A DNA stretch of 64,000 bases from Halovivax gelatinilyticus (GTDB lineage: Archaea; Halobacteriota; Halobacteria; Halobacteriales; Natrialbaceae). A program made the translations under genes and the position numbers. Positions 5,750 through 6,977 of the stretch are shown piece by piece. Every line of letters begins with the position of its first letter. Position 1 is the stretch's first letter. The notes under the pieces were generated by a model, which saw only the letters and a program-made list of their open reading frames with translations, was not told the DNA's origin and made no database searches. The stretch lies in the NCBI RefSeq assembly GCF_024300625.1, contig NZ_CP101322.1, forward strand, positions 2,617,992 through 2,681,991, read 5' to 3'.

Positions 5750-5820
5750 GCGCGGATGGTCTAGTGGTAGGACCTGAGCCTTCCAAGCTCATGGCCCGGG
5801 TTCAAATCCCGGTCCGCGCA
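5750..5820 (+). tRNA. tRNA-Gly (anticodon TCC)
   Basis: The full cloverleaf can be folded by eye. The acceptor stem GCGCGGA (5750-5756) pairs with TCCGCGC (5813-5819), with discriminator A at 5820 and no encoded CCA. The D arm contains CTAGTGGTAGG. The anticodon stem TGAGC (5775-5779) pairs with GCTCA (5787-5791) around loop C-T-TCC-A-A, with the anticodon at 5782-5784. There is a 4-base variable loop. The T stem CCGGG (5796-5800) pairs with CCCGG (5808-5812) around TTCAAAT. It has no intron. Its 3' part is repeated twice downstream. Confidence 0.96.
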
Positions 5821-6076
5821 CTTTTCGAGGAACGGACGTGACGAGAACGTGCTCGACAAAGGGATTTGAGCCCTATCAGTCGCAGCGCGCACAGCGAAGC
5901 GAGCACGAACGTCTGATTTCGGTTCAAATCCCGGTCCGCGCATTTCTGCTGCGAGCAATTCCGCGAGCAGCAGGAATCGTACGAGGGATTTGAATTACGG
6001 AAGTCGCAGCCCGCACAGTGAGTGAAGCGAAGCGAGTGAGACCGTCTCGCATCTGGTTCAAATCCCGGTCCGCCCA
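5799..6076 (+). repeat. Tandem copies of the tRNA-Gly 3' end (probable attachment-site scars)
   Basis: The last 22 bases of the tRNA (5799-5820) recur exactly at 5921-5942 and with one change (CGCGCA to CGCCCA) at 6055-6076. The two intervening units (5821-5942 and 5943-6076) are also related: both contain GGGATTTGA (5861-5869 and 5985-5993), a GTCGCAGC(G/C)CGCACAG block and AGCGAAGCGAG. GGGATTTGAA is the reverse complement of TTCAAATCCC in the tRNA copies, so each unit carries an inverted pair. Serial integration at the tRNA 3' end, with later loss of the elements, would produce this. Short ORFs read through these units are artefacts. The 320 bases to 6140 hold no gene. Confidence 0.8.
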
Positions 6077-6140: not shown

Positions 6141-6632
6141 TCACGGATCGAAGAGGTTCTGTGCGCGTCGGTAGATCGGACGTCCGAGCCAGTCGCGGGT
6201 TTCAGCCAGCTGTTCCACCCTGTCTCGGGCGTCCTCGGTTTCGAGAATGTCACGGTTGACGAGTGCCTTGAGGACAATCGGTGAGATCGCAACCTGGGCC
6301 CGTGTCACGGTCTGGAGTTCGGGGAGTGCTCGTAAATCGTCGGTAAGCAGAAAGTCGGCATCGAGTTTCTGGCAGAGTCCGACGCAGCTTGCTTCTCCCC
6401 GATCGATGCGAGATGTTTCGAGAGCAGGGTCCGCGACCGGGTGAACCGTAAACTGCGACCGGTTTTCGAGGACGTTCGCTGCGGCTTCCCCGTGTACGTC
6501 GGTGTATTCGGCAGTGGTTTCGAGCTCTTCGATTACCGTTTCTGTCGTATGCGTATTGAACGCTTCGAGAACGAGTTCCAACGCGTCAGCGGTAACGAGG
6601 GAGATGAGGGCGCTGGTATCGACGACGATCAT
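6141..6632 (-). CDS. PIN-domain protein, probable toxin of a VapBC-like pair
   Basis: A 163-residue protein with the PIN nuclease layout: the first acidic residue in IVVDTSALI (Asp5), a conserved Glu in the TVIEELE region, and the DRGEASCVGL and FLLTDDLRAL segments that supply the later acidic metal ligands. PIN toxins usually cut tRNA or mRNA. It starts directly after the stop of the upstream ribbon-helix-helix gene (TAA then ATG, no gap), so the two are translated together. It sits next to the tRNA-Gly attachment scars, a common place for such modules. The target RNA is unknown. Confidence 0.82.
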   Translation of the reverse strand: MIVVDTSALISLVTADALELVLEAFNTHTTETVIEELETTAEYTDVHGEAAANVLENRSQFTVHPVADPALETSRIDRGEASCVGLCQKLDADFLLTDDLRALPELQTVTRAQVAISPIVLKALVNRDILETEDARDRVEQLAETRDWLGRPIYRRAQNLFDP

Positions 6633-6935
6633 TTACAGGTCTGCGAGTTCGTCAGCGAGGTCGTCGCCCTGATCCAGAACGGTTTTGGAAGCGCGAACGG
6701 ATTCAGCGTCTTGACGTCCGGTGAATTCTTTCAGGGTTTCGAAGCCGATCTGGTCGTCGAGATAAAGTTCGACGACGGCTTCTTTGAACGTTTCGTCGTC
6801 TTCGACGGCGTCGAGATACTCCTGGAGCGCGTCTTTGACGATCTCGGTTCGGTTTTTGTGTGTCACTTCGGCTGCGATATCAGCTTTCTCCACCAGCTGT
6901 TCTGGAAGCCGGAAATTGACTCGTGTCGTACTCAT
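6633..6935 (-). CDS. Ribbon-helix-helix antitoxin/regulator
   Basis: A 100-residue protein whose N-terminus (TTRVNFRLPEQLVEKADIAA) is a ribbon-helix-helix DNA-binding fold: one beta strand, then two helices including NRTEIVKDALQEYLD. The C-terminal part is acidic and would bind and neutralise the PIN partner encoded immediately downstream. The ATG at 6935 fits better than a start 10 codons upstream, because it lies after the TATA box (6971-6977) and the TGTAC operator (6948-6963). Self-repression through these repeats is the usual mode for such antitoxins and is inferred here. Confidence 0.82.
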   Translation of the reverse strand: MSTTRVNFRLPEQLVEKADIAAEVTHKNRTEIVKDALQEYLDAVEDDETFKEAVVELYLDDQIGFETLKEFTGRQDAESVRASKTVLDQGDDLADELADL

Positions 6936-6947
6936 AACTCCACCCTC

Positions 6948-6977
6948 TGTACGTACATTGTACACAAGGGTTTATAA
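6948..6977 (-). promoter_or_regulatory. Promoter and TGTAC-repeat operator of the PIN/RHH pair
   Basis: On the minus strand a TATA box TTATAAA (6977-6971) is followed by three TGTAC half-sites in alternating orientation: 6959-6963, 6953-6957 and 6948-6952. They form the overlapping palindromes GTACATTGTAC (6953-6963) and TGTACGTACA (6948-6957). Half-sites at this spacing suit RHH dimers, and the sites overlap the expected transcription start. Confidence 0.65.

Follow-up and report, generated by a model that had tools for sequence, protein, structure and literature searches.

The window, a 64-kb stretch of the Halovivax gelatinilyticus genome, contains an intact tRNA-Gly gene (anticodon TCC) followed on the same strand by two related units (Table 1). 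The original prediction had described three tandem tRNA-Gly 3′ ends in this region, starting at positions 5799, 5921 and 6055 and spaced by 122 and 134 nt. Positions and spacings are correct, and there are three copies, but the first of them (5799–5820) is the T-arm/acceptor 3′ part, the final 22 nt, of the functional tRNA gene; hence there are two extra units rather than three. The 22-mer GGTTCAAATCCCGGTCCGCGCA is exact in the first two copies and carries one mismatch in the third. No further copies with up to three mismatches were found on either strand of the 64-kb window, where the expectation from shuffling is 0. Each extra unit also contains the inverse of the T-arm, as had been claimed (GGGATTTGAGCCC in unit 1 and GGGATTTGA in unit 2). 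In both units a second hairpin, H1, lies immediately 3′ of the tRNA-end copy, and the inverted arms enclose a conserved core, AGTCGCAGC...GACCGTCT. The hairpin of unit 1 has a single-strand fold z-score of −4.9. Directly past the array, on the minus strand (6141–6965), are a PIN-domain-like protein (6141–6632) and, upstream of it, a small CopG-like protein (6633–6965); from their sequences, the two genes read like a VapBC-type toxin–antitoxin pair.

Table 1. Features of the tRNA-Gly(TCC) array, in window coordinates
Feature	Position	Strand	Evidence
Intact tRNA-Gly (anticodon TCC), anchor of the array	5750–5820	+	Rfam RF00005, 70.8 bits, 5750–5820; ARAGORN, 5750–5821
Unit 1, 122 bp: H1, hairpin, tRNA 3′-end copy	5821–5942	+	Homologues behind other tRNAs
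H1 of unit 1: T-run, then GAGGAACGGACGTGACGAG; hairpin motif GA-RC-loop-GY-GA	5821–5860	+	Motif in 134 of 162 parsed units
Hairpin of unit 1: inverted T-arm (5861–5873), P2, conserved AGTCGCAGC/CGAACGTCT, GNA apex, T-arm	5861–5932	+	R1, 84.7 bits, E 6e-18
tRNA-Gly 3′ end, second copy, exact	5921–5942	+	22-mer search
Unit 2, 134 bp: H1, hairpin, tRNA 3′-end copy	5943–6076	+	22-mer search
H1 of unit 2: TTTCTGCTGCGAGCAATTCCGCGAGCAGCAGGAATC	5943–5984	+	Close H1 likenesses behind other tRNAs, e.g. Phe, Thr
Hairpin of unit 2: inverted T-arm (5985–5993) to T-arm	5985–6066	+	R1, 69.3 bits, E 7e-14
tRNA-Gly 3′ end, third copy, one mismatch; right end of the array	6055–6076	+	22-mer search

BLAST of 5822–6076 against the same genome returned dozens of relatives, nearly all of the strong ones located immediately downstream of other tRNA genes (Phe, Ser, Ile, Thr, Leu, Val, Cys, Pro, Glu, Ala, Lys and others). 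Relatives are present downstream of 20 of the 41 tRNA genes, and the covariance model R1 has 31 matches in the genome. With ~20 relatives in its own genome, a sequence confined to the tRNA-Gly locus is ruled out.

R1 matches are found in 36 of 41 genomes of relatives and, among 242 haloarchaeal genomes, in 234 (~97 %). In a phylum-wide sample, which doubles as a false-positive control, R1 matched 22 of the 24 haloarchaeal genomes and none of the remaining 124. The genomes without an R1 match at E ≤ 1e-6 are G033 (one contig, 98 % complete), G032, G034, G050, G080, G098, G037 and G211. Placement is restricted too: of the 127 R1 matches in four complete congeneric genomes, 114 are located less than 1 kb downstream of a tRNA gene and on its strand, against ~0.55 % at random. 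Within these genomes 79 tRNAs carry one to five units, with the first hairpin beginning 38–229 nt past the tRNA, and no reverse-oriented unit near a tRNA is present among the 127 matches. Real unit numbers exceed those reported, because R1 misses core variants of the GGTTC type. At Leu-TAG (L044), Ser-TGA (L121) and Glu-TTC (L173), such variants have an internal loop that is symmetric and of the GGTTC type (..CCGAGGTTC..GGTTCTCGG..). On the Natrinema thermotolerans megaplasmid CP031304.1 (L061:2918–3022), one unit follows a tRNA-Glu-like gene with an insert, either an intron or the mark of a pseudogene; ARAGORN makes no call there.

Reading downstream of all 41 Rfam-found tRNAs reveals a common plan. 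The tRNA 3′ end is followed by a T-run and H1 (GA-RC-loop-GY-GA), the inverted T-arm, an outer loop strand, P2, AGTCGCAGC, a variable tip, GACCGTCT, P2′, the second loop strand, and a copy of the T-arm and acceptor of that same tRNA. The outer stem of the core hairpin is formed by the inverted T-arm paired with the T-arm copy. The median length of parsed units is 125 bp. In Natronorubrum bangense (NZ_CP031306.1, L060:4144–4230), extra H1 hairpins, free of core hairpins, lie past the tRNA-Gly unit, which suggests that H1 is able to stand alone.

The hairpin was compared in two alignments: A1, a plain sequence alignment of 24 hairpins from behind different tRNAs, and A2, comprising 113 hairpins from the four congeneric genomes. 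Three stems, each with compensatory changes, and a tip of variable length are evident in both. Double changes are already apparent in A1 in 7 of the 16 pairs predicted by RNAalifold. In A2, which was fitted to the model so that its figures lean towards it, 91.9 % of cells pair compared with 78.8 % after shuffling, and covariation is 0.323 compared with 0.118±0.006 (none of 500 shuffles reaches the observed value). The signal collapses when the partners are slid. At A2 columns 20/143 of the inner stem, for example, the pairs are CG (58), GC (31) and UA (10).

C(GNA)G is a motif of very stable DNA mini-hairpins. It is present in 98 of the 113 hairpins, and such tips suit single-stranded DNA. Use of the GCGAAGC mini-hairpin has been described (e.g. 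PMC4686876). On the tRNA strand, G-U pairs outnumber A-C mismatches in the outer stem (55 versus 11), the inner stem having 5 versus 10, and folding is slightly better for the tRNA strand than for its opposite. The strand test is mixed and does not separate RNA from DNA; the wobble excess of the outer stem and the folding difference suit RNA as well and speak against a reading as DNA alone. The units might accordingly be read as RNA elements, transcribed behind the tRNA and folding as a pre-tRNA trailer or small RNA that would affect tRNA maturation, decay or dosage, the pairing between inverted arm and T-arm being the working part. Stem covariation, the wobble excess together with the slightly better folding, tandem G.A motifs on the tRNA strand and the constant location of units on that strand would all fit. 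However, about half of the tRNAs have no units and the set varies by species, integrated islands (described below) part arrays from their tRNA, and the T-runs immediately past the tRNA may stop transcription earlier. The whole acceptor strand is copied, moreover, although the pairing needs no such copy. A search of nine stretches against Rfam 15 matched no family, the only hits above gathering scores being tRNA and 5S rRNA. A known structured RNA family was rejected on this outcome, which also speaks against an RNA role; such a role is regarded as quite unlikely.

Units are matched to the tRNA behind which they stand. The 19 nt 3′ copy fits its own tRNA better than every other array-bearing tRNA of the same genome in 102 of 111 units, and in 101 of the 111 no other T-arm matches the inverted arm better than its own does. 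Among 162 units, the 19 nt copy is identical to the tRNA in 94 and has at most one mismatch in 132. The matching holds even between orthologues: Gly-CCC pairs GTTCAATTCCC with GGGAATTGAA, and Leu-TAA pairs CAAATC with GATTTG in G002 and CGAATC with GATTCG in other species. Near-identical cores are also found behind different tRNAs, with differing outer stems.

Arrays were compared at the species level, with one genome per species. Orthologous tRNA-Gly(TCC) genes, adjoined by the same methyltransferase gene in several genomes, are followed by 0, 1, 2 or 5 units; unit number therefore differs between related species, variation between strains having been named as support in the original prediction. 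The five-unit array of G001 at this tRNA has the order ABAB′C, and ABA arrays occur at Tyr in the H. gelatinilyticus genome and at Gly-CCC in G001. The sister species G002 and G003 share two units at Val-CAC, 96 % and 93 % identical, in cleanly reversed order. Clean reversal of two units is also apparent at Ser-CGA, where 60-base blocks are up to 92–95 % identical, and partial reversal, involving one unit or H1 modules, at Ser-TGA, Lys-TTT and Leu-TAA. In the same pair of species, order is kept at Cys with a one-unit difference at the tRNA side, and one and two units have been gained or lost at the tRNA side of Glu and Phe, respectively. A script count of pair order across five genomes gave 5 reversed and 4 conserved pairs; new units in G002/G003, counted by eye, are proximal in about 5 cases and distal in 4.

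Exchange is also evident within units. Among pairs at the same tRNA, the hairpin is at least 92 % identical while H1 is at most 67 % identical in 10, and the reverse pattern is seen in 7. The swapping of H1 and hairpin partners and the reordering of units place the breakpoints at T-arm copies, which are direct at unit ends and inverted between H1 and hairpin. Inheritance in place is nonetheless frequent relative to chance; the nearest neighbour in another genome is located at the same tRNA for 28 % of units, versus 4 % after shuffling.

Rearrangements of this kind could arise in passive tandem repeats, by ordinary recombination, whether unequal or at microhomologies, in a polyploid genome, with stems kept matched by template-switch correction of near-palindromes and no dedicated recombinase. 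Direct repeats of ~20–25 bp recur every ~125 bp, and no associated enzyme has been found (see below). ABA and ABAB′ are the exact intermediates of a change from ab to ba, and ABA/ABAB arrays are compatible with simple unequal recombination too. Haloarchaea commonly undergo repeat-mediated deletions, and those at short direct repeats have been documented in Haloquadratum (PMC3119063). However, passive recombination does not explain the tight binding of units to tRNA genes, nor why the same AGTCGCAGC/GACCGTCT core is kept class-wide behind different tRNAs even where it is unpaired. It is considered a rather unlikely account of the arrays.

R1 matches far from tRNAs are mostly no true orphans but lie at the distal ends of integrated islands (Tyr, Arg-TCT, Thr-CGT) or in an insert-bearing array (Phe); a few have no such assignment. 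The tRNA-Thr(CGT) island of G001 has a 28-bp att on both sides and an integrase gene adjoining the array side. Islands of 17–19 kb at tRNA-Tyr of G001 and G004 and at tRNA-Arg(TCT) of the H. gelatinilyticus genome have a short acceptor-strand att and the integrase end beside the array. These last three (L156, L149 and L155, respectively) form one family, in which the integrase ends just before the array-side att; similar island left ends are found in G002 at Ala-CGC, Tyr and Arg-TCT. The islands stand between tRNA and array, and separate the two by 11–19 kb. None of four islands and one island-end remnant has a unit as its own end. A second such island in G001 has an end that starts at the 3′ copy of a unit, which indicates that islands can use unit copies as att sites. 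The proposed association with integrases is confirmed to this extent: the 3′ copies of units coincide with insertion places of integrase-bearing islands.

Movement of the unit itself by att-site integration is a different matter. In BLAST against phages, all of the best 20 matches listed are inside the tRNA part of the query, and among 2.9 million viral contigs of IMG/VR there was one pattern match, which R1 did not confirm; a phage-borne unit was rejected on these outcomes. The satellite element envisaged in the original prediction is thus upheld as regards its tie to tRNA 3′ ends, beside many kinds of tRNA and class-wide. Its suggested spread by way of the att site is not, given that islands lack the unit as their own end, that units are nearly absent from viral contigs and that many are inherited in place. 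The other suggestion, a ladder of old insertions, would make the units remnants of integrative elements that entered and left the tRNA att site. The direct repeats do have the sequence of the tRNA 3′ end, islands with integrases insert at the same places, and Haloquadratum is known to have provirus-linked partial tRNA copies, 22 and 43 bp long (PMC3119063). Scars of different elements, however, would not have in common one conserved, covarying, tRNA-matched hairpin, which such a ladder leaves unexplained; the units contain no element genes, and the intact islands examined do not end in a unit. Scars of this type are a very improbable source of the units.

Genes are rare within arrays. The Phe array of G004 contains a 1.65-kb insert with a single ATPase_2/DUF234 gene (L152:776–2173). 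In the H. gelatinilyticus genome, a gene of apparently the same archaeal ATPase family is directly behind the Lys-TTT array (L023:727–1800). A Pfam scan of 84 ORFs from the islands and the array surroundings of this genome found no array-associated gene, only ordinary neighbours, integrases and the two ATPase_2/DUF234 genes. Each of these domains had two members in the scan. The ATPase genes are possible cassette cargo.

No recombinase was found to track the arrays: tyrosine recombinases are about as numerous in genomes that lack units as in those that have them, and in one genome their number is only 2 alongside at least 20 units. A search for the integron integrase IntI (TIGR02249) gave nothing above the cut-off in eight unit-bearing genomes and no match whatever in the H. 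gelatinilyticus genome.

The reading preferred here, with a probability of roughly 0.4, is that the three tRNA ends of the window form one array of a class-wide, gene-poor cassette family that recombines at tRNA-end repeats and has an attC-like hairpin. Cassettes would be exchanged by recombination at the tRNA-end/T-arm copies, the actor most probably being a tRNA-targeting tyrosine recombinase supplied in trans. The hairpin may be kept because it is recognized in folded single-stranded DNA, in the manner of integron attC sites, and the tRNA T-arm would be the fixed receiving site. If a single folded site is made up of the inverted arm and the T-arm, the lack of reverse-oriented units near tRNAs is expected, although homologous recombination is compatible with it too. 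A more far-reaching form of this proposal, a class-wide integron-like system in which T-arms receive and tRNA-matched folded hairpins donate, served by a non-IntI tyrosine recombinase and carrying mostly geneless cassettes with an occasional gene (such as the ATPase gene of the G004 Phe array), is possible but doubtful.

The family appears to be a haloarchaeal tRNA-linked non-coding repeat that neither Rfam nor the open literature searched describes; earlier notice in the subscription literature is possible. A large share of the tRNA loci annotated in haloarchaea would gain a feature, and many of the partial tRNA copies at these loci would be explained. The family would also offer a natural test for structure-guided (attC-like) recombination outside integrons or, if the units act as RNA, a class-wide element downstream of tRNA genes.

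Short mobile repeats known from haloarchaea include MITEs and PATEs (PMC3119063). The units resemble these in being small, non-coding, dispersed, palindromic and prone to repeat-mediated deletion, but differ in their location at tRNA 3′ ends, their single orientation and the adaptation of each copy to its host tRNA. Integrative elements that target tRNAs by SNJ2-type tyrosine integrases share with the units the direct repeats of the tRNA 3′ end and the same insertion places. The integrase families of SNJ2, HSTV2 and pR1SE are restricted to Halobacteria (reviewed in PMC8371274), as is the unit within the sampled phylum. In contrast to such elements, the units are ~125 bp long, geneless, devoid of an integrase, present several to a site and absent from the islands examined as part of them, and they have a conserved, covarying hairpin.

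The consensus of the attC outer box is GTTRRRY/RYYYAAC. The haloarchaeal unit instead has GTT followed by C (GTTCAAA or GTTCGAA in A1 and A2). Integron cassettes mostly carry ORFs, whereas the haloarchaeal units are nearly all geneless, the single-gene insert at Phe in G004 being the one found. The lack of an IntI match above the cut-off, the wrong outer box and the mostly geneless cassettes rule out membership of the integrons, which, like CALINs, do occur in archaeal MAGs (PMC9668308). The likenesses are nevertheless extensive. As in integron and CALIN arrays, there are tandem modules at a fixed receiving site whose order and number are reshuffled. As in attC, there is an imperfect hairpin with an outer box, an unpaired spacer, an inner box and a variable tip, its structure kept while the paired bases vary. 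Unlike integrons, however, haloarchaeal genomes contain many arrays, a second hairpin, H1, is present in nearly all cassettes, and each array is seated on a tRNA T-arm and has an outer box that copies the tRNA in question.
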